A stretch of DNA of 64,000 nt from Jatrophihabitans cynanchi (GTDB taxonomy: Bacteria; Actinomycetota; Actinomycetes; Mycobacteriales; Jatrophihabitantaceae), in NCBI RefSeq assembly GCF_027247405.1, contig NZ_CP097463.1, positions 3,596,001 through 3,660,000 of the forward strand, read 5' to 3'. The translations under genes and the position numbers were made by a program. Shown here in pieces: positions 33,461-50,252 of this stretch (within the stretch, counting starts at the first letter, position 1; each line of letters starts with the position of its first letter). The notes beneath the pieces were generated by a model that was given only the letters and a program-made list of their open reading frames with translations, was not told where the DNA came from and made no database searches.

Positions 33461-34645
33461 ATGGCCAACGAGGTGCTCGAGCGGATCGAGGAACGCGCCG
33501 AGGAGTTGCGCGCCGAGGGCGCGATCAACGAGAAGCTGGGCCGGCTCTCGGACGAGTCGGCGAAGCTGCTGCGCGACGTCGGCGCGATCCGGCTGCTGCA
33601 GCCACGCTCGCGCGGCGGCTTGCAGGCGCACCCGCGCGAGTTCGCCGAGACGGTGATGCGGATTGCCAGCCTGGACGGCGCGGCCGGCTGGGTCAGCGGG
33701 GTCGTCGGGGTGCACCCGTGGGAACTCGCCTTCGCCGACCCCAAGGTTCAGGACGAGGTGTGGGGCGAGGACCCGGACACCTGGCTCGCCTCGCCGTACG
33801 CGCCGATGGGCATCGCCAAGCCCGTGGACGGAGGCTACGAGTTCAGCGGGCGCTGGCAGTTCTCGTCCGGTACCGACCACTGCCAGTGGATCTTCCTCGG
33901 CGGCTTCGTCGGTGACGCCGACGGCAACATGGCGGTGCCGCCGCGTTCGCTGCACCTGATCCTGCCCCGCTCGGACTACGAGATCGTCGACGATTCGTGG
34001 GACGTCGTCGGGTTGCGCGGCACCGGCAGCAAGGACGTGATCGTCAAGAACGCGTTCGTCCCCACCTACCGCACGCTGGAGTACAACCGCGTCGTCGACG
34101 GGACGCTGCAACGCGCCGCCGGCCTGGACGATCCGAGCTACCTGCTGCCGTTCTCGGTGGCGTTCCCGCTCGGCATCACCGCGGCCGTCGTCGGCATCGC
34201 CGAGGGGGCACTCGCGCACCACCTCGCCTACCAACGCACCCGGGTGCAGATCACCGGGACGAAGGTGAAGGACGACCCGTACGTGCTGTACGCGATCGGC
34301 GAGGCGGCGGCCGAGATCTCCGCGTCCCGGACCGCATTGCTCGAGAACGTCTGCCGCGTCTACGACATGGTGGCGGCTGGTCAGCAGCCGACGCTGGAGG
34401 ACCGCGCGGTGGGCCGGCGGATCCAGGTGCAGGCGGCGCGGCGTGCGGTGTCCGCGGTCGACGAGATCGTGGCCCGGTCCGGCGGCAACGCGATGCGCAT
34501 GGACAACCCGCTGCAGCGGTTCTGGCGCGACGCGCACATGGGGCTCGCGCACGCGATCCACGTGCCCGGGTCGGTGTTCCACGTGTCCGCGCTGACCAAC
34601 CTGGGCATCGAGCCGCCGCCCGGCCCGATGCTCTCGATGATCTAG
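33461..34645 (+). CDS. HsaA-like flavin-dependent monooxygenase (paralogue)
   Basis: ATG at 33461 gives 394 residues. The acyl-CoA-dehydrogenase-like fold of group D monooxygenases is seen (LLQPRSRGGLQAHPREF, LDGAAGWVSGVVGVHPWEL, DVVGLRGTGSKDVIVKNAFV). It resembles HsaA, but it lacks the C-terminal motif NDxxRA...GEFGL that the gene at 39487 shares with mycobacterial HsaA. It is thus a second, diverged oxygenase in the hsaC operon. It may hydroxylate a related phenolic secosteroid and probably uses reduced flavin from HsaB. hsaC follows after 15 bp. Confidence 0.85.
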   Translation: MANEVLERIEERAEELRAEGAINEKLGRLSDESAKLLRDVGAIRLLQPRSRGGLQAHPREFAETVMRIASLDGAAGWVSGVVGVHPWELAFADPKVQDEVWGEDPDTWLASPYAPMGIAKPVDGGYEFSGRWQFSSGTDHCQWIFLGGFVGDADGNMAVPPRSLHLILPRSDYEIVDDSWDVVGLRGTGSKDVIVKNAFVPTYRTLEYNRVVDGTLQRAAGLDDPSYLLPFSVAFPLGITAAVVGIAEGALAHHLAYQRTRVQITGTKVKDDPYVLYAIGEAAAEISASRTALLENVCRVYDMVAAGQQPTLEDRAVGRRIQVQAARRAVSAVDEIVARSGGNAMRMDNPLQRFWRDAHMGLAHAIHVPGSVFHVSALTNLGIEPPPGPMLSMI

Positions 34646-39486: not shown

Positions 39487-40692
39487 GTGGCCGACGAGGT
39501 GCTGGACGCGGTACGGGAACTGCTCCCCGCGATCGCGGCGCGGTCCGCCGCCGCCGAGCAGGCGCGCGAGCTTCCCGCGGAGACCATCGCGGAACTGGGC
39601 GCGGCCGGCGTCTTCCGGATGCTGCAACCCGCACGGTACGGCGGCCTGGAGGCCGAACCGGTGCGCTTCTACCGCGTCGTCCGCGAGCTCGCCGCGGCCT
39701 GTGCCTCGACCGGCTGGGTGAGCGGGGTGCTCGGCGTACATCCCTGGCAGCTCGGGCTGTTCGACGATCGTGCGCAGGCCGAGGTGTGGGGCGCCGACCC
39801 TGCCGTGCTGGTCGCCTCGTCGTACGCGCCGCTCGGCAGGCTCACGCCGGTCGACGGTGCGGGTGCCCCCGCCGGTGGGGGCGTGGCCGCGGGGGGAGGC
39901 TACCGGCTCTCCGGACGCTGGGGGTTCGCCTCCGGCTGTGCCCACGCGTCGTGGTGCCTGCTCGGTGCGCTCGTCGTCGGCGCCGAGGGCCGGCCGGTGG
40001 ACTTCATGACGGTGCTGGTGCCGCGGGCCGACTACCGCATCGCCGACGTCTGGGACGTCGTCGGGCTGCGTGGCACCGGCAGCAACGACGTGATCGTGCG
40101 GGACGTCTTCGTGCCGGCACACCGCACCATGCGCAACTACGAGCAGGCACAACTGCGTGGCCCGGGGCAGAAGGTGAACACCGGCCCGCTGTACCGGATG
40201 CCGTTCGCGACGATCTTCACGAGCGCCGTCGCCGCGCCGGTGATCGGCGCGGTATCCGGCGGGTACGAGCGGTACCTGGAACAGATGCGCGACCGCAGCC
40301 GGCTCAGCCTCGGCGGCGGCCGCTTCGCCGAGGACCACTTCGCGCAGGTGGCGGTCGCCCGCGCCGCGTCGCAGCTCGACGCCGCGATCTTGCAGACCGA
40401 CCGCAACGTCACCGACATCTGGGCGCGTGTGGTCGCCCACGAACCGATCCCGATGCGGTTGCGGCTGCGCGCGCGGCGCGACCAGGTGATGGGTGTCGAG
40501 CGGGCCGTGGAGGCGATCGACCTGCTGTTCAAGACTGCCGGCGGCAACTCGCTGCGCACCGGGAACCCGATCGAGCGTGCCTGGCGCGACGCGCACGCCG
40601 GCAGCGTCCACGTCGCCAACGACGCCGACCGCGCGCTCGCGTTCTACGGCCGCGGCGAGTTCGGCCTGACCGTCGAGGACAACCTCGTCTGA
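39487..40692 (+). CDS. hsaA: 3-HSA monooxygenase oxygenase component
   Basis: GTG at 39487, with GAGGAGG 10 bp upstream, gives 401 residues. The chain matches mycobacterial HsaA better than the paralogue at 33461 does (STGWVSGVLGVHPWQLGLFD, DVWDVVGLRGTGSNDVIV, AWRDAHAGSVHVANDADRA and the final GEFGL). It hydroxylates 3-HSA at C4 with reduced flavin from HsaB. About 13 extra residues rich in Ala and Gly interrupt the conserved VDGGY segment near residues 126-138; they are encoded by a REP-like element. It converges with the exonuclease gene. Confidence 0.9.
   Translation: MADEVLDAVRELLPAIAARSAAAEQARELPAETIAELGAAGVFRMLQPARYGGLEAEPVRFYRVVRELAAACASTGWVSGVLGVHPWQLGLFDDRAQAEVWGADPAVLVASSYAPLGRLTPVDGAGAPAGGGVAAGGGYRLSGRWGFASGCAHASWCLLGALVVGAEGRPVDFMTVLVPRADYRIADVWDVVGLRGTGSNDVIVRDVFVPAHRTMRNYEQAQLRGPGQKVNTGPLYRMPFATIFTSAVAAPVIGAVSGGYERYLEQMRDRSRLSLGGGRFAEDHFAQVAVARAASQLDAAILQTDRNVTDIWARVVAHEPIPMRLRLRARRDQVMGVERAVEAIDLLFKTAGGNSLRTGNPIERAWRDAHAGSVHVANDADRALAFYGRGEFGLTVEDNLV
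39861..39900 (+). repeat. REP-like GC hairpin element inside hsaA (copy 1)
   Basis: About 40 bp with the shared core GCCCCCGCCGGTGGGGGCGT, then GGCCGCGGGGGGAGG. It is close in sequence to the element in the hydratase gene at 49803. It sits in frame between codons for the conserved VDG and GY residues, adding 13 residues. The HsaA paralogue in this window has no insert at that position. Confidence 0.7.
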
Positions 40693-40719
40693 CAGCGGCT
40701 GTGACCGGGAGGGCAGCGC

Positions 40720-41721
40720 TCAGAAGAGCGCGAGCTGGTCGCTGACCGGCACCCGTACGGGCAGCCGGCGCACCGCCGGGCGCGGTGGTGCCGACGCGAC
40801 CCACTGCTCCGCGACGGGCCGTGGCGGCAGGTCGGCGCCGGCGAGGATCTGTGCCGCCTTGGCGGCGGACCAGACCAGGTTCTGCGCCTGGAACACCGCG
40901 TCCACGACGGCCACCGGCAGCGGCAGCACGCCGGCTCCGGCCGTGACGTCCAGCCCGAGCGGGACGTCGTGGTGCATCGCCATCACCTGGCAGTTGAGCT
41001 CCCAGGCGGCGCGCGCCTCGGGGTGCGCGAGCCGGCCGGCCACGCCCGCCCCGAGCCGGTCGCCCACCGCGTCCAGGTCGTCGAACGCGCTCGCGGCGGA
41101 GCCGAACTCGGCGAGCAGGCGTGCGGCGGTGCGCGGGCCGACGCCACGCACGCCGGGCAGGTTGTCGGAGGGGTCGCCGCGCAGCGCCGCGTAGTCGCGG
41201 TACTGGGCGGGCGTGACGCCGAGCAGCATGACCAGGCGTTCGGGCGTCATCGTCGGCGAGGCCTCGACGCCGCCGTTGATGATGCGCAGCACGCTGGTGC
41301 GCTCGTCGATCAGGGCGAACGCGTCGCGATCGGACGTCGCGATCACGGTCCGGCCGCCGAGGCCGCGGGCGAACGCGGCGACCGACGCGCTCACGTCGTC
41401 GGCCTCCAGCCCGTCCGGGACGACGACGGCTAGCCCGAGGTCGCGCATCACCTCGACCGCGCAGGCGAGCTGCTCGACCAGGCTGGCCAGCTTCTCGGCC
41501 CGGTTGGCCTTGTACCCGGGCCAGCGCTCGCGGCGCAGCGACCGGCACGGGTCGTCGAACCCGACCACCACGGCGGTGGGGCGGACGCGGTCGACCGCCG
41601 CGACGAGCTGGGTCAGCAGACCGCGAACCGCCCAGCGAGGCTGCTCGCTGCTGGCCATCGCGTGGTAGCTGCGGTGGACGAGGGAGTTCCCGTCGATCAC
41701 CAGCACCACCGGCTCTTCCAC
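40720..41721 (-). CDS. Stand-alone 5'-3' exonuclease (Pol I N-domain/FEN-like)
   Basis: GTG at 41721 gives 333 residues. Metal-binding acidic motifs of the PIN-like domain are present (VLVIDGNSLVHRSYHA, GLEADDVSASVAAF, IATSDRDAFAL). A helix-3-turn-helix DNA-binding motif follows (GDPSDNLPGVRGVGPRTAA). The polymerase domain is absent, as in other stand-alone actinobacterial versions that process flaps and RNA primers. The C-terminal 60 residues are Pro/Ala/Arg-rich. It is 37 bp after the KstD-like gene and is the only DNA-metabolism gene in the steroid cluster. Confidence 0.85.
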   Translation of the reverse strand: MEEPVVLVIDGNSLVHRSYHAMASSEQPRWAVRGLLTQLVAAVDRVRPTAVVVGFDDPCRSLRRERWPGYKANRAEKLASLVEQLACAVEVMRDLGLAVVVPDGLEADDVSASVAAFARGLGGRTVIATSDRDAFALIDERTSVLRIINGGVEASPTMTPERLVMLLGVTPAQYRDYAALRGDPSDNLPGVRGVGPRTAARLLAEFGSAASAFDDLDAVGDRLGAGVAGRLAHPEARAAWELNCQVMAMHHDVPLGLDVTAGAGVLPLPVAVVDAVFQAQNLVWSAAKAAQILAGADLPPRPVAEQWVASAPPRPAVRRLPVRVPVSDQLALF

Positions 41722-41758
41722 GCACCCACTGTGCCAGGCGCCTGCGACGATCGCGCCG

Positions 41759-43282
41759 TCAACCCGCCAGGTGGCGCGCCGCACGGTAGGCGAACACCAT
41801 CGCCGTGCCGATCGGGCTGCCCGGGGCGGGGTAGTGGCGGCCCATCACCGACGCGCTCGTGTTGCCCGCCGCGTAGAGCCCGTCGATCGCGCTGCCGTCG
41901 GTGCGCAGTACCCGCGCGTCGGCGTCGGTGCGAAGCCCGCCCTTCGTGCCGAGATCGCCCAGCACCACCCGAGCCGCGTGGTACGGCGGCTGCCCGAGCG
42001 GGACGAGACAGGGATTCGGCGCGTCGGACGGGGCGGCGAAGTAGCGGTCGTACTCGTCCTCGCCGCGGTGGAACTGCTCGTCCACGCCGGTCTCGGCGAA
42101 CCCGTTGAACCGCTCGACACTGTCGCGCAGCGCGCCGGCCGGCACCCCGGTCAGGCCGGCCAGCTCCTCGAGCGTCTCGGCGCGCACCCAGGCGCCGGAG
42201 GCCAGGTACTGCGCGCGGGGTGCTCCGGGAACGCAGTTGATCGCGGGCAACTGGCCGCCCTCGCGCGAGTCGAACACGAAGTGGCACGGGATCCGGGTGG
42301 CCGGGTCCGCGGCCAGCACCCGCCCCATCCGGTCGTAGGGCAGCGACTCGTTGGCGAACCGCTCGCCGTTGCGGTCGACGAAGATGCCGCCGCGCAGGCC
42401 GAGGAAGAACGCTGCCGACCCGTCCGGCTGCACCAGGGCCGGGCACCACCAGGCTTCGTCCATCAGGTCGGTGGCCGCGCCGATCGCGACCGCGGCCTCG
42501 ATCGGCTCGCCGGTGTTGGTGCCGCGCGGCCCCATCGTCCAGTCGGGCCGTCCCGGCGTGTCGCAAGCGGCGCGCAGTGCGGCGTTGCCCTCGAAACCAC
42601 CGGCTGCCAGCAGCACACCGCGCGCCGCTCGCACCCGCAGCGGGCCGTCGTCGGTGTGGGCCTGGACCCCGACGACCCGCCCACCCTCGACCACCAGCCG
42701 CTCGACGCACGCCCCGGTGCGCAGCTCGGCGTTCCCGGTCCTGCGCAGCGCGAGCAGCAGCCGGCCGATCAGCGCCTGCCCGCCGCCGAGCGTGTCCCGC
42801 GGCACGTCGACGCCGTTGCGCTCGGCCGCGATGGTCGGGCGCAGCAGGGCGAGCAGGTCGGCGTCGAGTTCGGCCGACGGCAGCGGCGCGGGGACGATGT
42901 GGCCGCCACCGGGAAGCCGGCCGTCGACCGCGAAGTAGTCGGGGAAGCTGAAGTACCGGAATCGCAGCAGCGGGTCGCGCTCGAGGAACTCGACAAGCTC
43001 GGGCGCGGTGCGCAGGTACGCCTCGCGGCGCGGGTCGTCGCCGTCGCCCAGTACCGCGCGCAGATAGGTGCGGCCGCGATCGACGGAGTCCACGACACCG
43101 GCGCGCGCCTCGGCCTGGTTGCCGGGCAGGAACAGGCCGGCGCCGGAGTACGCGGACGTGCCGCCGAACAGGGCGGTCTTCTCCAGCACCACCGTCCGCA
43201 GCCCGTTGCTCGCTGCCGTGTACGCGCCGGCCAGCGCGCCGCCGCCGGAGCCGACGACCGCCACGTCGCACTCGAGGTCCAT
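41759..43282 (-). CDS. KstD-like FAD-dependent dehydrogenase (third in window)
   Basis: ATG at 43282 gives 507 residues, near the 510 of Rhodococcus KstD1; the frame is open further upstream but crosses the divergent promoter. The FAD motif is VVGSGGGALAGAYTAASNGL, with GGTSAYSGAGLFLPGN next. The C-terminal loop RHYPAPGSPIGTAM keeps the Tyr-x3-Gly spacing of Delta1-KstD. It probably desaturates a 3-ketosteroid with a different side chain or ring state from the substrate of the kstD at 30649. Motif A lies 41 bp upstream, shared with an SDR gene. Confidence 0.85.
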   Translation of the reverse strand: MDLECDVAVVGSGGGALAGAYTAASNGLRTVVLEKTALFGGTSAYSGAGLFLPGNQAEARAGVVDSVDRGRTYLRAVLGDGDDPRREAYLRTAPELVEFLERDPLLRFRYFSFPDYFAVDGRLPGGGHIVPAPLPSAELDADLLALLRPTIAAERNGVDVPRDTLGGGQALIGRLLLALRRTGNAELRTGACVERLVVEGGRVVGVQAHTDDGPLRVRAARGVLLAAGGFEGNAALRAACDTPGRPDWTMGPRGTNTGEPIEAAVAIGAATDLMDEAWWCPALVQPDGSAAFFLGLRGGIFVDRNGERFANESLPYDRMGRVLAADPATRIPCHFVFDSREGGQLPAINCVPGAPRAQYLASGAWVRAETLEELAGLTGVPAGALRDSVERFNGFAETGVDEQFHRGEDEYDRYFAAPSDAPNPCLVPLGQPPYHAARVVLGDLGTKGGLRTDADARVLRTDGSAIDGLYAAGNTSASVMGRHYPAPGSPIGTAMVFAYRAARHLAG

Positions 43283-43323
43283 CTCGCGACTGTCCCGCGG
43301 ACAACGCCGAGCGGCCAGGGGCG

Positions 43324-43338
43324 TCCCGGTCACCGGGA
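43324..43338. promoter_or_regulatory. Motif A, best copy (7-bp perfect arms)
   Basis: TCCCGGTCACCGGGA is a perfect palindrome around a single central base. It lies 41 bp from the KstD-like start and 44 bp from the SDR start. A CTAGCG hexamer at 43369-43374 lies 38 bp from its centre and would place the plus-strand transcription start next to the ATG at 43383. Confidence 0.72.
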
Positions 43339-43382
43339 GCGGTCGCGGCGCGCGGCCCGGCCGCGTGGCTAGCGTCGGCCCG

Positions 43383-44126
43383 ATGAACCGCTTCGAGGGC
43401 AAGGCGGTGCTGCTCACCGGTGCCGCGTCCGGAATGGGGCGCGCGACGGCGCGGCGGCTCACCGCCGAGGGTGCCGCCGTGTTCGGCGTGGATCGCGACG
43501 AGGCGGGGCTGGAGCAGACCGCGGGCGAGATCGGATCGGGCCGCTTCGTCCCGCACGTGGCCGACGTCAGCGACGAGCAGGCGGTGATCGCGGCCGTGGC
43601 CGCCGCGCGCGAACAGCTCGGCGGCCTGGATGTGCTGGCGAACGTCGCCGGGATCCAGCGCACCACCCCGTTGGCGACGCTGACCGTCGCCGAGTTGCAG
43701 GAACTGTTCGCCGTCAACACGATCGGCACGGCGCTGTTCTGCCGCGAGGCCGCGCTGCATCTGCCCGATCACACCGGGGTGATCGTCAATATCGCCTCGA
43801 GCGCTGCCACCCACGGCCACCCGTACATGGCCGCGTACGCAGCCAGCAAGGGTGCGGTGCTCGCCCTGACCCAGACGCTCGCCGCCGAACTCGCGCCGCG
43901 TGGCATCCGGGTGCTCGCGATCTCCCCTGGCGGCGTGCGCACCCCGCTCACCGCGAAGGTCACCTTCCCCGAGGACGCCGACCGGAGCTACTACGGCCGC
44001 GTGCTGCCGTTGCTCGGTTTCGGTGAGCCCGAGGACGTCGCCGCGGCGATCGCCTTCGCGGCGTCCGCCGACGGCCGGTACTGGACCGGTTCGGAACTTC
44101 GCCTCGACGGCGGCTCACACATCTAG
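43383..44126 (+). CDS. Short-chain dehydrogenase/reductase (hydroxysteroid type)
   Basis: ATG at 43383 gives 247 residues. The Rossmann motif is TGAASGMGRATARRL, the NAG motif is ANVAGIQRTTPL, and the catalytic tetrad includes Ser in NIASSAATHG and Tyr-Lys in YAASK. The ending GSELRLDGGSHI is typical of classical SDRs. It is followed after 9 bp by a 3alpha-HSD-like SDR. Possible substrates are ring or side-chain hydroxy groups of the steroid; specificity is unknown. A conventional ribosome site is not obvious, which fits a near-leaderless mRNA. Confidence 0.82.
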   Translation: MNRFEGKAVLLTGAASGMGRATARRLTAEGAAVFGVDRDEAGLEQTAGEIGSGRFVPHVADVSDEQAVIAAVAAAREQLGGLDVLANVAGIQRTTPLATLTVAELQELFAVNTIGTALFCREAALHLPDHTGVIVNIASSAATHGHPYMAAYAASKGAVLALTQTLAAELAPRGIRVLAISPGGVRTPLTAKVTFPEDADRSYYGRVLPLLGFGEPEDVAAAIAFAASADGRYWTGSELRLDGGSHI

Positions 44127-44135
44127 GAGATCGCC

Positions 44136-44906
44136 ATGACCCGACGTGCTGTCGTCACCGGCTCGGCGTCCGGGATCGGCAAGGCGACCGCGGTGTTGCT
44201 GCAGCAGCAGGGCGTCGACGTGCTCGGTGTCGACCTCAAGGACGCGGACGTGTGCGCCGACCTGGGCACGCCGGACGGCCGGTCCGCCGCGGTCGAGGCG
44301 ATCGGCGAGCGTGGCGGCCTCGACGTCGTGGTGGCATGTGCCGGCATCACCGGCGCGAACGCGGCGGTGCCGAGCGTCAACTTCTTCGGCGTGGTCGACC
44401 TGCTCACCGGGCTGCGTCCGCTGCTCGCCGCCGGCAACGACCCGCGCGCCGCGCTGATCAGCTCGGTGTCCAGCGTGCACCCGACCGACGAGGCGCTCGT
44501 GGCCGCCTGCCTGGCGCAGCACGAGGTGGCTGCGCGTCGCCGTTCGGAGGAGTTACTGGCCGAGCAGGCCTGGGCGTTGCTCTACTCCTCGTCGAAGGCG
44601 GCGCTGGCCCGCTGGGTGCGGCGCGCCGCGATAACCCCGGAGTGGGCGGGTGCGGGCATCGCGTTGAACGCGGTGGGCCCGGGCGTGGTGCTCACCCCGA
44701 TGAGCGGCGAGCTGATGAACGACCCGGTGATGAAGCCGATCATGGACGCCGCGGTGCCGATGCCGCTGAACGGCTACGCGCCGGCCGAGGCGGTCGCGGC
44801 GCCGCTGGCGTTCCTGGTCAGCCCGGCGAACACGCACGTCACCGGGCAGGTGCTGTTCGTGGACGGCGGCGCGGAGGCCACGCTGCGCGGCGACACGATC
44901 TGGTGA
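44136..44906 (+). CDS. 3alpha-hydroxysteroid dehydrogenase-like SDR
   Basis: The 256-residue protein has the plan of the Comamonas 3alpha-HSD/carbonyl reductase: an unusual short NAD domain (GVDLKDADVCADLGTPDGR) and the segment VNFFGVVDLLTGLRPLL. A long insert follows ISSVSS before YSSSK, and the end is VTGQVLFVDGG. This subfamily interconverts 3alpha-hydroxy and 3-keto steroids, so bile acids or 3alpha-sterols may be substrates. A GGAG site precedes the ATG. It ends 6 bp before the converging Hsd4A-like gene. Confidence 0.8.
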   Translation: MTRRAVVTGSASGIGKATAVLLQQQGVDVLGVDLKDADVCADLGTPDGRSAAVEAIGERGGLDVVVACAGITGANAAVPSVNFFGVVDLLTGLRPLLAAGNDPRAALISSVSSVHPTDEALVAACLAQHEVAARRRSEELLAEQAWALLYSSSKAALARWVRRAAITPEWAGAGIALNAVGPGVVLTPMSGELMNDPVMKPIMDAAVPMPLNGYAPAEAVAAPLAFLVSPANTHVTGQVLFVDGGAEATLRGDTIW

Positions 44907-44912
44907 CCCGAA

Positions 44913-45842
44913 CTACTGCGTGAGGTTCTGGATGCCCGTCGTGTCCAGCTGCGCGATCGAGTAGGCCGAGAACGTCCGGTACGGGCTGCGACCCTCGAAG
45001 TAGGGCGTGACCTGGCCGGCGAACTCGGCCGCGGTGAACACGCCGTCGGCGGCCTCGAACTTCTTCTCCACCGTGGCCGGCGCGAGCAGTGCGACCATGC
45101 CGCCGTACACGACGAACACCTGGCCGTTGATCCCGTCGGCGGCGGGTGCGGCGAGGAACCGGACGAACTCGGCGACGCGTTCGGGGGCGAGCGCGTCGAG
45201 GGCGGTGTCCTCGTTAGGGTCGGCGCCGAAGACGTGGCCGGTCATCGCGGTGCGGGCGCGCGGGCAGATCGCGTTCGCGCGCACGCCGTAGCGCGACAGG
45301 CCCTGAGCGGTCGAGAGCGTGAGGGCGGTGATGCCGGCCTTCGCGGCCGAGTAGTTCGGTTGCCCGGCCGAGCCGAACAGGAACGCCTCGGACGAGGTGT
45401 TCACGACGCGCCCGTACACCGGGCCGCCCGCGGCCTTGCTGGCCGAGCGCCAGTGCACCGCCGCCGCGCGCGACAGCGCCGCGTGGCCCTTCAGGTGCAC
45501 CCGGATCACGTCGTCCCACTGCGATTCGGTGAGGTTGAACAGCATGGTGTCGCGCAGCACGCCGGCGTTGTTGACGACGATGTCCAGGCTGCCGAAGGTC
45601 TCGACCGCCGCCGTGACCAGCGCGTCGCCCATCGACCACTCGCCGACGTCGCCGGTCACCGCGATCGCCTTGCCGCCCGCGTCCTCGATCTCGCCGACCA
45701 CGTCGTCGGCCGCGGAGCCGACGTCGTTGACGACGACACGCGCTCCGGCGGCCGCCAGGGCGAGCGCCTCGGCGCGGCCGAGTCCGCCGCCGGCGCCGGT
45801 GACGACCGCGGTCCGGCCGTCCAGATCGATCGACTCGCTCAT
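44913..45842 (-). CDS. Hsd4A-like SDR (steroid 3-hydroxyacyl-CoA dehydrogenase)
   Basis: The 309-residue protein resembles the N-terminal dehydrogenase of peroxisomal multifunctional enzyme 2 and actinobacterial Hsd4A/ChsB1. It has VVTGAGGGLGRAEALALAAA, VVVNDVG, NAGVLRDTMLFNLTESQWDD and the YSAAK catalytic motif. The C-terminal extension after residue 250 (VTPYFEGRSPYRTFSAYSI) is longer than in simple SDRs, as in Hsd4A. It would oxidise the side-chain 22-hydroxyacyl-CoA. A motif B site lies 26 bp upstream. Confidence 0.83.
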   Translation of the reverse strand: MSESIDLDGRTAVVTGAGGGLGRAEALALAAAGARVVVNDVGSAADDVVGEIEDAGGKAIAVTGDVGEWSMGDALVTAAVETFGSLDIVVNNAGVLRDTMLFNLTESQWDDVIRVHLKGHAALSRAAAVHWRSASKAAGGPVYGRVVNTSSEAFLFGSAGQPNYSAAKAGITALTLSTAQGLSRYGVRANAICPRARTAMTGHVFGADPNEDTALDALAPERVAEFVRFLAAPAADGINGQVFVVYGGMVALLAPATVEKKFEAADGVFTAAEFAGQVTPYFEGRSPYRTFSAYSIAQLDTTGIQNLTQ

Positions 45843-45868
45843 CGGCTTCCTCTCGGCAACGACGCAGG

Positions 45869-45884
45869 CTAGTACGTATTCTAG
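45869..45884. promoter_or_regulatory. Motif B site upstream of the Hsd4A-like gene
   Basis: On the minus strand this reads CTAGAATACGTACTAG, identical at 13 of 16 bases to the CTGAAATACATACTAG of the permease promoter. It carries TAGAATACGTACTA, which agrees with the KstR box TnnAACnnGTTnnA at 6 of 8 fixed positions. It is close to the gene start, as expected for a repressor site. Confidence 0.62.
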
Positions 45885-45915
45885 TTCGTCGGCCGACTGG
45901 ATGTGCTGTCAGCAG

Positions 45916-45930
45916 TCCTGATCAGCGGGA
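45916..45930. promoter_or_regulatory. Degenerate motif A copy
   Basis: TCCTGATCAGCGGGA differs from the motif A consensus at two left-arm or centre positions. It lies between two motif B sites in the divergent Hsd4A-like/thiolase region. Dual control is possible, but the copy is weak. Confidence 0.4.
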
Positions 45931-45983
45931 CCGCTTCGTTGGGCTGCGGGCGGCCCGACGCGCTAAGCTGGACTCCACGTGAC

Positions 45984-47144
<1,161 letters not shown>

Positions 47145-47148
47145 GCCG

Positions 47149-49338
47149 GTGAGCATCGGGCTGAGCGAGGAGCACCGCGCGCTGCGCGACGCGGTGCGCG
47201 GCTGGGCCTCGCGCCACGTCCCGCCGTCCGCCGTCCGCGCCGCGGTCGAGGCCAAGGACGAGATCCTTCCGCCGTTCTGGCCGTCGCTCGCCGACCAGGG
47301 GCTCCTCGCGCTGCACCTGCCGGAGGAGCACGGCGGTGCGGGGCAGAGCCTGCTGGACGCCGCGGTCGCGCTGGAGGAGCTGGGCCGCGCGCTGGTGCCC
47401 GGACCGGTGTTGCCCACGCTGCTCGCGTCCGCGGTGCTGCACGACTGCGGGCACGCCACCCACCTGAGGGCGCTCGCGGACGGCTCGGCAACCGGCGCGT
47501 TCGCGCTGCAGCCCGGCGGGCTCACGCTTCGCGACGGGGTACTGGACGGGATCTCCGGCCCGGTGTCCGGTGCCGCGGTCGCCGACGTGCTCGTGCTCGC
47601 GGCACGCGACGGTGCTGCTGCCACCGACGGCGCCGCGCTGCGCTGGGTCGTGCTCGCCCGCGATCAGGTCGAGGTCGAGCAGACCGGCAGCTACGACCTG
47701 ACCTGCCGGCCGGCCACGGTGCGCGCAACCGGCGTCCGAGCCGAGGTGTTGCCGCTGGACGAGGCGCGGGCCACGACGCTGGCCGCCGTGCTGTTCGCCG
47801 CCGAGGCGTCCGGGCTCGCCGACTGGTGCGTGACGACTGCCTGCGGGTACGCACGCGTACGCGAGCAGTTCGGCCGCCCGATCGGGCAGTTCCAGGGCGT
47901 CAAGCACCGCTGCGCGCGCATGCTGGCCCGCGCCGAGCAGGCCCGTGCCGCCGCCTGGGACGCCGCGCGCGCAGCCGCAGCACCCGGCGCGGAGGCCGAG
48001 CTCGCCGCAGCCGTGGCCGGCCTGCTCGCGCCGGACGCCGCGTTCAGCAACGCCAAGGACTGCGTGCAGGTGCTCGGCGGCATCGGCTTCACCTGGGAGC
48101 ACGACGCCGGGCTGTACCTGCGCCGCGCGCACAGCCTGCGCCTGCTGCTCGGCTCGTCCGCGAGCTGGCAGCAGCGGGTCGCGAAGCCGGCGATCGCGGG
48201 GGTGCGCCGCAACCTCGGCGTCGAACTTCCCGGGCACGCCGAACGGATCCGTGCCGAGGTCCGGGCCGAGCTCCAGGCCGCCGCGGCGCTGGACGGTGCC
48301 GAGCGGGACACCTACCTGGCCGAGCACGGCTATACCGCGCCGCACCTGCCCGCGCCGTGGGGCAAGGGTGCCGACGCGCTCACCCAACTGGTGATCGCCG
48401 AGGAACTGCGCGCCGCCTCGCTGCGTCCGGTGGACATGGTCATCGGCGGCTGGGTGGTGCCGACCCTGATCGCGCACGGCAGCGCCGGGCAGCAGAAACG
48501 CTTCCTGCCCGCGTCCTTGCGCGGTGACATCGTGTGGTGCCAGCTGTTCAGCGAGCCCGGAGCCGGGTCGGATCTGGCCGCGCTCAGCACCCGCGCCGTC
48601 AAGGTCGAGGGGGGCTGGCGGCTGTCCGGGCAGAAGGTCTGGACGTCGATGGCGCGCGAGGCACACTGGGGCATCTGCCTGGCGCGAACCGACCCGGATG
48701 GTCCGAAGCACAAAGGGATTTCGTACTTCATCGTCGACATGCACAGCCCCGGTGTCGACGTGCGGCCGCTGCGTGAACTCACCGGCGAGGCCCTGTTCAA
48801 CGAGGTGTTCCTCGACGACGTGTTCGTGCCCGACGACCTGCTGGTGGGCGAGCCCGGCGACGGCTGGAAGCTGGCGCGCACCACGCTGGCGAACGAGCGC
48901 GTGGCGCTGAGCTACGACTCCTCGATCGGCTCCGGGGGCGAGCGGCTGCTGGCCATCGCCGCGCAGCTCGGCGGGCTGGACGCCGAGCAGCTGTGCACGC
49001 TCGGCACGCTGCTCGCCGACGCCCAGGCCGGCGGCCTGCTCGCGCTGCGCACGACGCTGCGCTCGCTCGCCGGCGGCCAGCCGGGCGCGGAGTCGAGCAT
49101 CGGCAAGCTGCTCGGCGCCGAACACACCCAGCTCGTCTGGCAGACCGCGATGGACTGGCTGGGTCCGGACGCGCTCACCCTGGACCTCGCCGACCGCACG
49201 AGCGCGGCGCACCGCTTTCTCAATGCCCGCTGCCTCACGATCGCCGGCGGCACGACCGAGGTGCAGCTGAACATCATCGCCGAGCGGCTGCTCGGGTTGC
49301 CGCGCGATCCCGAGCCGGTCTCCGGCGCGAAGGCCTGA
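47149..49338 (+). CDS. Fused double acyl-CoA dehydrogenase (FadE34-like)
   Basis: The 729-residue protein holds two acyl-CoA dehydrogenase domains in one chain. Residues about 1-345 end in the [16 protein letters not shown] and [20 protein letters not shown] motifs. Residues about 375-720 contain [28 protein letters not shown] and a final [20 protein letters not shown]. Mycobacterial FadE34 (711 residues) has the same fused plan and acts on steroid side-chain CoA esters, where other pathways use alpha2beta2 pairs. It lies between the thiolase and the hydratase, giving a near-complete beta-oxidation set. Confidence 0.88.
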
Positions 49339-49340
49339 CC

Positions 49341-50252
49341 ATGCCGATCGACGTTGCTGCCGCGCTGGGTGCCGAGCCGGCCGCCTGCGAGCTGTCCTGG
49401 ACCGAGCCGGACGTCCTGCTCTATCACCTCTCGCTCGGCGCCGGCGCGTATCGAACCGATCCGGCCGAGCTGCGCTGGACCTACGAGCGGGACCTGCAGG
49501 TGCTGCCGACCTTCGCGCTCGTGGCGGGCGGCCGCGCAGCCACGATGCGCTCGGGGGCGCCGATGCGGCTGCCCGGGATCGACGTCGACCTGCGCAAGAT
49601 CCTGCACGCAGGGCAGGCGATCACGCTGCACGCGCCGATCCCGGTGTGCGCGAGCGTGCGATCGACCTCGCGTGTCGCGCAGGTCTGGGACAAGGGCAAG
49701 GCCGCGGTGATCGTGCTGCAGAACGAGGTCGCCGATCTCGACGGCCGTCCGCTCTGGACGGCGACCTCGCAGATCTGGGCCCGTGGCGAAGGCGGCTTCA
49801 GTGGGGGTCCCCCCGCCGGTGAGGGCGTAGCCGGCGGGGGAGGGGATGCCGGCCCGGACACGTCCTGGGCCGCGCCCGAGCGACCCCCCGACCTGGTGCT
49901 CGACTCCCCGACGTCGACCCAGAGCGCGATGCTGTACCGGCTGAACGGCGACCTGAACCCGCTGCACGTCGATCCGCAGTTCGCTGCCGCCGCCGGGCTG
50001 GACCGTCCGATCCTGCACGGACTGGCGTCCTACGGCATCGCCTGCAAGGCCGTCGTCGACGAGGTACTCGGCGGCGACGCGAGCCTGGTGCGCGACTACG
50101 CGGCGCGCTTCGCCGGGGTGCTCGTGCCGGGGGAGAGCATCCGGACCCGCATCTGGCGCAACGGCGAGCGGCTGACGCTGCAGGCCTGCTGCCCCGAGCG
50201 GGACGGCGCCCCCGTACTCACCCACGCGACGATGACCGTAGGTGCGTCGTGA
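49341..50252 (+). CDS. MaoC-type 2-enoyl-CoA hydratase (Hsd4B-like)
   Basis: ATG at 49341, 2 bp after the previous stop, gives 303 residues with the double hot-dog plan of hydratase 2. The catalytic motif has Asp204 and His209 in LNGDLNPLHVDP, followed by AAAGLDRPILHGLASYG. It resembles Hsd4B, which hydrates the C22-C24 enoyl-CoA of sterol side chains before Hsd4A. A segment near residues 155-168 (GGPPAGEGVAGGGGDA) is low complexity and comes from a REP-like insert. The stop overlaps the thioesterase start by GTGA. Confidence 0.87.
   Translation: MPIDVAAALGAEPAACELSWTEPDVLLYHLSLGAGAYRTDPAELRWTYERDLQVLPTFALVAGGRAATMRSGAPMRLPGIDVDLRKILHAGQAITLHAPIPVCASVRSTSRVAQVWDKGKAAVIVLQNEVADLDGRPLWTATSQIWARGEGGFSGGPPAGEGVAGGGGDAGPDTSWAAPERPPDLVLDSPTSTQSAMLYRLNGDLNPLHVDPQFAAAAGLDRPILHGLASYGIACKAVVDEVLGGDASLVRDYAARFAGVLVPGESIRTRIWRNGERLTLQACCPERDGAPVLTHATMTVGAS
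49803..49845 (+). repeat. REP-like GC hairpin element inside the hydratase gene (copy 2)
   Basis: Arms CCCCCGCCGG and CCGGCGGGGG form a perfect 10-bp stem around an 11-base loop, flanked by GGGG runs. It shares the core CCCCCGCCGGTGnGGGCGTnGCCG with the element at 39861. It is in frame and adds about 14 residues between GEGGF and the conserved SW segment. Confidence 0.72.

Follow-up and report, generated by a model that had tools for sequence, protein, structure and literature searches.

The stretch of DNA analysed here, a 64,000-nt window covering positions 3596001-3660000 of the 4.515-Mb single-contig Jatrophihabitans cynanchi genome, contains two genes that are each interrupted in frame by a copy of a short GC-rich hairpin repeat. 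One is hsaA (39487..40692, + strand), encoding the oxygenase subunit of 3-HSA hydroxylase (NF045629, 605 bits against a cut-off of 450; PDB 2rfq), whose product aligns to NF045629 over residues 6-401 across 383 model positions. The other (49341..50252, + strand) had been called Hsd4B-like in the original prediction, which was made from the letters alone; it is more accurately an MFE-2 hydratase/MaoC-domain gene, its protein combining an MFE-2 hydratase N-terminal domain (PF22622) with a MaoC domain (PF01575; PDB 1s9c). The repeat copies lie where they had been predicted, at 39856..39897 in hsaA and 49800..49841 in the hydratase gene (both + strand), each as a 42-nt unit with a net insert of 39 bp across which the host frame is open, and the predicted peptides are GAGAPAGGGVAAGG and SGGPPAGEGVAGGG, respectively. 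They share the core GCCGGTGnGGGCGTnGCCG, whose exact matches in the window are at 39871 and 49815 only; at up to three mismatches there are nine window matches against 3.66 expected in shuffles, so that only the exact pair stands out. A covariance model made from 17 copies, these two among them, found both in a search of the whole genome, at window positions 39854-39899 (47.0 bits, E 1.5e-6) and 49798-49843 (73.8 bits, E 2.3e-12). The 10-bp stem proposed for both copies is intact in the hydratase gene (predicted fold -26.5 kcal/mol), whereas the hsaA copy is diverged, with eight mismatches to the 42-nt consensus, a damaged stem and a different fold. The insert, described before as about 40 bp and 13-14 residues, has a net length of 39 bp and 13 residues and is best read as 42 nt replacing one codon. 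In HsaA it interrupts the VDGGY segment, as had been noticed, and this segment is uninterrupted in an HsaA paralogue without the insert (33461..34552, + strand; 38% identity, tblastn and alignment), which serves as an empty-site control within the window. Rfam gave no matches at gathering cut-offs over window positions 39700-50000.

Comparison with orthologues, the check suggested at the outset, gives a clean presence/absence difference of 39 bp. Among 60 relatives, 15 match HsaA at E<=1e-100 and the 13 residues are absent in all 15; 14 match the hydratase at E<=1e-50, and the 13 of these that span the site all do so without the 13 residues. Had the segments been ancestral protein sequence, distant orthologues could have been expected to share them; the only HsaA orthologues seen with residues at the site are those of Prauserella alba, in frame, and Saccharomonospora sp. 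CUA-673, and both carry the same DNA element there, possibly through one ancestral insertion. The Saccharomonospora locus (L132; labels in L and G are ours, for loci and genomes) has a one-base shift of hsaA inside the element, which may reflect a broken gene or a draft-assembly error. The HsaA proteins of P. isguenensis and P. halophila, 95% identical to that of P. alba, are without the insert, and because they retain short GGGAGG-like and GAGAGG-like remnants, these two sites look like losses. A third site, in a Streptomyces gene that we presume to encode an FAD monooxygenase, was compared at the DNA level in 31 rows (29 of 30 loci from the search plus two named loci), of which 26 are empty, four are filled and one holds other sequence. 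One filled/empty pair each from a Streptomyces AMP-ligase and a Streptomyces acyl-CoA dehydrogenase shows a gap of exactly 39. At all three Streptomyces sites GAC GGC (or GGC GAC) has become ART GGG ... GGG GGA plus the second codon; the event is 42 nt for 3, net +39, and it has no target duplication.

The two copies belong to a dispersed family, with a 42-nt unit ARTGGGGGTMCCCCCGCCARTGAGGGCGTAGCCGGCGGGGGA, a family consensus CARTGGGGGTMCCCCCGCCARTGAGGGCGTAGCCGGCGGGGGAGG and, for the spanning segment, the predicted in-frame peptide NGGTPANEGVAGGG. The covariance model finds 27 matches in the J. cynanchi genome at E<0.001 and 29 at E<0.1. Of the latter, we built no argument on three weak and doubtful copies, L076 (in another frame), L078 (32.9 bits) and L079 (25.1 bits). 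Among the 61 genomes of the order, the own genome included, 11 have a match at E<=0.1 and 50 have none; strong matches (E<1e-6) occur in five relatives, G001, which is of the same family as the window genome, G007, G035, G048 and G057. Scanning one genome per species with a degenerate 30-mer found 46 stretches, carried by Streptomyces, Prauserella, Amycolatopsis, Saccharomonospora, Haloechinothrix, metagenome-assembled genomes (MAGs) of Actinophytocola, one Jatrophihabitans MAG and one Thermoleophilia MAG, and all 34 other genomes behind these stretches carry covariance-model matches at E<=0.01, from one to 24 each. In a sample of 395 other actinobacterial genomes, with the best 15 candidates per genome scored, none had a match at E<=0.001. 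The phylum survey thus shows the repeat to be sparse rather than absent, and, considering the 11 of 61 genomes, the scattered 34 carriers and the 0 of 395 together, its distribution across actinobacteria is patchy. A phage or plasmid origin was also considered; viral contigs gave no match to the exact degenerate pattern, and plasmids and phages none to the 45-nt consensus at E<=0.01, which is weak evidence against such an origin, as a low-complexity filter could mask so short and GC-rich a query. Some 31-nt matches in relatives proved to be a distinct short-loop repeat and were excluded from the element counts. This sibling, GCGCTGGGGGTCCCCCCGCTTGCGGGGGAGCTCATCG, has the element's ends but a 4-nt loop (L086:1501-1531, L095:321-351, L292-L298), occurs at seven places in G007, one in G013 and one in G035, and looks intergenic.

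The consensus folds into an outer stem and an inner GGC-GTA-GCC hairpin at about -20 kcal/mol, and across 45 aligned copies 97.6% of the cells pair. Stem pair 19-37, both sides of which were left free in the scanning 30-mer, is CG in 32 copies, GC in 11 and AU in one. The covariation score of 0.084 compares with 0.018 in shuffles, none of 500 reaching the observed value, and with 0.006 or less when the partners are slid. Paired stem changes alter the encoded residues while the pairing stays, so it seems to be the hairpin, and not the precise peptide, that was preserved as copies spread. A GTAG tetranucleotide is present at columns 30-33, placed inside the loop of the inner hairpin and not at an end.

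A bias in reading frame, also suggested for checking, is clear. We scanned 165 loci (L051-L079, L106-L181 and L212-L271; L081-L105 and L292-L311 were left out), where L212-L271 represent 60 of 102 matches previously without a locus, chosen to the exclusion of most weak matches, tandem neighbours and the bulk of the FW021 MAG. These loci hold 152 distinct copies, and the 149 kept after dropping three with more than 10 mismatches form 119 single copies or arrays. Coding was judged by a codon score trained on eight window genes, which misses copies at gene ends; in the own genome this applies to L052 (GatB end), L053 (DUF222/HNH), L054 (LpdA start) and L072 (FtsH tail), where the genes are in frame. 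By this measure 81 of the 119 arrays have coding sequence on both sides in a single open frame, the remaining 38 being one-sided (23), frame-differing (8), neither (6) or opposite-strand (1). Sixty-six of the 81 are read in the forward frame [N/S]GGTPA[N/S]EGVAGGG, nine as SPAGYAL..GGG, four as PPPPATPS.. and one each in two other frames. They fall into 40 gene-family clusters, split 27, 7, 4, 1 and 1 by frame; as downstream flanks were sometimes translated off-frame, these clusters lean on the upstream flank and may have been divided too finely. Stops close the two other forward frames of the consensus, and its three reverse frames are all open; of these, the basic one, PRRLRPHWRGY, is used by none of the 81 in-frame arrays. 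A forward-frame share of 27 of 38 families has p 3e-9 under equal use of the four open frames, and forward orientation in 29 of 40 families gives p 0.003. Over the 12.2 kb of 11 window genes, 137 of 207 GRCGR occurrences fall in codon phase, as do 137 of 186 of its reverse complement; target phase accounts for part of the frame bias, but does not explain why forward in-phase families outnumber reverse ones by 27 to 7. Tandem arrangement, mostly with a 39-bp period, is found in 20 of the 119 arrays, and L127, L116 and L075 contain nested copies, which together show that the unit amplifies in place too. One tandem locus of the own genome, L072 (2822660-2822777), has three partly degenerate copies that form the reverse-frame Pro-rich tail (PPPPTAPLAGGPPS repeats) of an FtsH-type protease.

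The host proteins are diverse. In the own genome, those above NCBIfam cut-offs are GatB (as a C-terminal extension), an LpdA-type quinone dehydrogenase, monomeric isocitrate dehydrogenase, GcvP and L-piperidine-6-carboxylate dehydrogenase; Pfam adds the FtsH-type protease tail, an acyl-CoA dehydrogenase and a MiaE-like protein, others being named more loosely. Compared with solved structures, HsaA and GcvP each have 13 extra residues, isocitrate dehydrogenase and the aldehyde dehydrogenase 12 each, and LpdA 10; the comparison of the hydratase with PDB 1s9c is less clean, as an adjoining loop also differs. Ten of 11 acyl-CoA dehydrogenase copies are at one turn, before [YW]-[VITL]-x-[NTD]-G-x-K, the off-site exception being L075 of the own genome, in which one copy is nested in another. 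The ten same-turn proteins are 20-55% identical except for one 89% pair, and a single ancestral insertion for all of them is therefore unlikely. HsaA, of the same superfamily, looks to have been struck at the equivalent turn: in its AlphaFold2 model (pLDDT 88.9, about 75 across the insert) the insert is predicted to occupy, as residues 124-137, the turn between strands 117-122 and 138-147. In the AMP-ligase family, at least eight of 10 arrays are directly before G-W-[LF]-[HR]-T-G-D. Because the acyl-CoA dehydrogenase, HsaA and AMP-ligase sites recur in this manner, the places at which copies land or survive are turns, in many cases Asp-Gly ones.

A non-autonomous mobile hairpin, with a 42-nt unit and a net length of 39 bp, has quite probably spread through scattered genomes of actinobacteria, and both segments of the window would be copies of it. 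The earlier suggestion, that a small mobile repeat is tolerated as a linker in proteins, is supported by the dispersed family with its compensatory stem changes, the clean empty sites differing by a net 39 bp, the one dominant frame and the predicted beta-hairpin turn, with tandem and nested copies besides. The hairpin would move as DNA or RNA with a factor supplied in trans, entering at GRC|GR with replacement of the GRC triplet, and translation would then run through the insert and yield a flexible Gly-rich loop. With GRC|GR mostly in codon phase, a unit length that is a multiple of three and one stop-free forward frame, many insertions would be in frame from the outset; selection would then remove the rest, leaving survivors gathered in turns. 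We can go one step further, although only tentatively and with somewhat less than even confidence, and suppose a phase-locked element for which genes, not spacers, are the niche: the GRC|GR target (a codon pair typical of Asp/Gly turns), the 42-for-3 replacement and the single stop-free forward frame would make insertion into genes largely harmless, and the element, mobilised by some as yet undescribed enzyme or pathway distinct from Y1/RAYT, would re-target the same protein turn in unrelated genes.

Several points weigh against reading the repeat as a mobile element. Its movement is inferred from comparisons and was not observed, and no mobilising enzyme was found, the Y1/RAYT family PF01797 being absent in the own genome and the five strong-carrier relatives. 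The target rule rests on three DNA-level and two protein-level empty sites, and at the left edge the change from GAC or GGC to ART is unlike a simple precise insertion. The shuffle control behind the covariation score ignores the relatedness of the copies. Some copies act as old fixed sequence, as in Prauserella, where the hsaA copy looks like an old insertion with losses. Finally, at four places in the own genome (L053, L055, L056 and L062, at 1.655, 0.581, 2.218 and 2.907 Mb) the copies have nearly identical flanks, at L053 near the C-terminus of a DUF222/HNH gene, and the element there seems to have multiplied along with a larger repeat.

The main rival dispenses with a dedicated enzyme and lets the repeat spread by template switching, microhomology repair or gene conversion between copies and GC-rich targets. 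The alteration of target edges in place of duplication would suit such a process, as would the 20 of 119 tandem arrays with their mostly 39-bp period, the nested copies and the frequent return of the repeat to similar turns of paralogous genes. However, the same 39-bp net insertion in unrelated genes of several genera needs little target homology, and the consistent ends look like those of a defined unit, so we regard this explanation as unlikely. A different possibility would be that the peptide is kept as a selected linker module aiding its host enzymes, which could explain the dominance of the Gly-rich forward frame in 27 of 40 families and the open frames of diverged copies (eight mismatches in hsaA, nine in L077). 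The hosts are unrelated enzymes, however, one Streptomyces site is empty in 26 of 31 rows, and target phase with tolerance also predicts much of the frame bias; we find selection of this kind very unlikely to be the explanation. Ancestral or convergent low-complexity protein sequence, with no element at all, might come to mind, since GC-rich genomes often encode segments rich in Gly, Ala and Pro. Against it speak DNA that is nearly identical between unrelated genes, paired stem changes that alter residues yet keep pairing, and clean absence in orthologues, and for the genes tested the model E-values and empty sites rule out chance and low complexity, so we give it practically no credence.

The resemblance to repetitive extragenic palindromic (REP) elements needs separate attention, as the segments had been called REP-like. 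In shape this is apt, since the repeat is a small palindrome in the 20-40 bp range with many copies; membership of the class is another matter. True REPs moved by a REP-associated tyrosine transposase (RAYT, a Y1 transposase) and landing in genes by chance would agree with the size, the hairpin, the presence of GTAG and the few inverted pairs (own genome 791442/791550; G466). Against this, PF01797 was not found in the own genome, G001, G007, G035, G048 or G057, in a search that did not extend to the Streptomyces carriers; the search was positive in five of 14 control genomes, and among the 61 genomes of the order it was positive in four, with no strong carrier among these. A Y1 gene is present in G058, where the element match is only weak and partial (E 0.08). 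The GTAG is internal, and 81 of 119 arrays are coding in frame, not extragenic. We rejected a RAYT-mobilised REP on these grounds, and as an account of the copies in genes it appears highly improbable. REPINs are inverted pairs. Our repeat is like RAYT-associated REPs and REPINs in being a short non-autonomous hairpin that forms populations within genomes; unlike them, its units are single or direct tandems (20/119) with few inverted pairs, and RAYT is absent in the strong carriers searched.

Palindromic elements that code within proteins are reportedly known from the work of Ogata in 2000 and 2002 as Rickettsia palindromic elements (RPEs). The present family similarly is dispersed in one genome (27 copies at E<0.001, with stem covariation), stands in frame in unrelated genes (81/119 arrays, 40 clusters) and is absent in orthologues. 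In the portions of PMC10969869 and PMC3733652 that concern them, RPEs appear as palindromic repeats, known from Rickettsia, that are dispersed in one lineage and add a peptide in frame to unrelated genes, with no mobiliser given and, in PMC10969869, a length of about 150 bp; in contrast to that length, the unit here is 39-42 bp (net 39 bp) and is GC-rich, actinobacterial, read in one dominant frame and bounded by a GRC-replacing edge. The GTAG/CGTC-tagged REPs of Opitutus terrae, R. conorii and others are likewise palindromes of 20-40 bp, some of them within open reading frames and read as protein, but as far as the same part of PMC3733652 goes they are tagged at one end and mostly extragenic, whereas here GTAG is in the loop and copies are mostly genic. 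The words 'actinobacter', 'Frankia' and 'Mycobacterium' do not occur in the main text of that article. With miniature inverted-repeat transposable elements (MITEs), which may fuse in frame with open reading frames (PMC10969869, in its relevant section), the repeat shares small size and non-autonomy; it differs in its net 39 bp without target duplication at the three DNA-level sites, and no terminal inverted repeats of an insertion sequence (IS) were recognised, no IS library having been compared. Among the matches listed in the open-access literature, which leaves subscription papers uncovered, there was no description of the repeat or its peptide.

We therefore have an actinobacterial family of putatively protein-coding palindromic elements, with the reading frame usually kept, that reaches beyond the window. 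The best-known palindromic insertions in frame are those of the reduced, AT-rich parasite Rickettsia, and this family offers a separate GC-rich actinobacterial case. Core enzymes (GcvP, isocitrate dehydrogenase, GatB, the FtsH tail) are among its hosts and relatives supply clean empty sites, which makes two questions testable, namely by what means protein-coding palindromes move and whether their frame is set by target choice or by selection. Other actinobacterial proteins may carry the 13-residue tag unnoticed, which would be relevant to annotation, structure prediction and the design of insertion-tolerant loops.

Two further places in the own genome deserve mention. At 791442-791595, L052 and L071 form an inverted pair of elements about 60 bp apart; L052 provides the final residues of GatB, and L071 is at the start of an open reading frame matching DUF2332 over positions 194-334 only, so that the gene may be broken there. 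At 986198-986243, L065 is a copy in the spacer between a penicillin-binding-protein-like gene and an FtsW/RodA gene.

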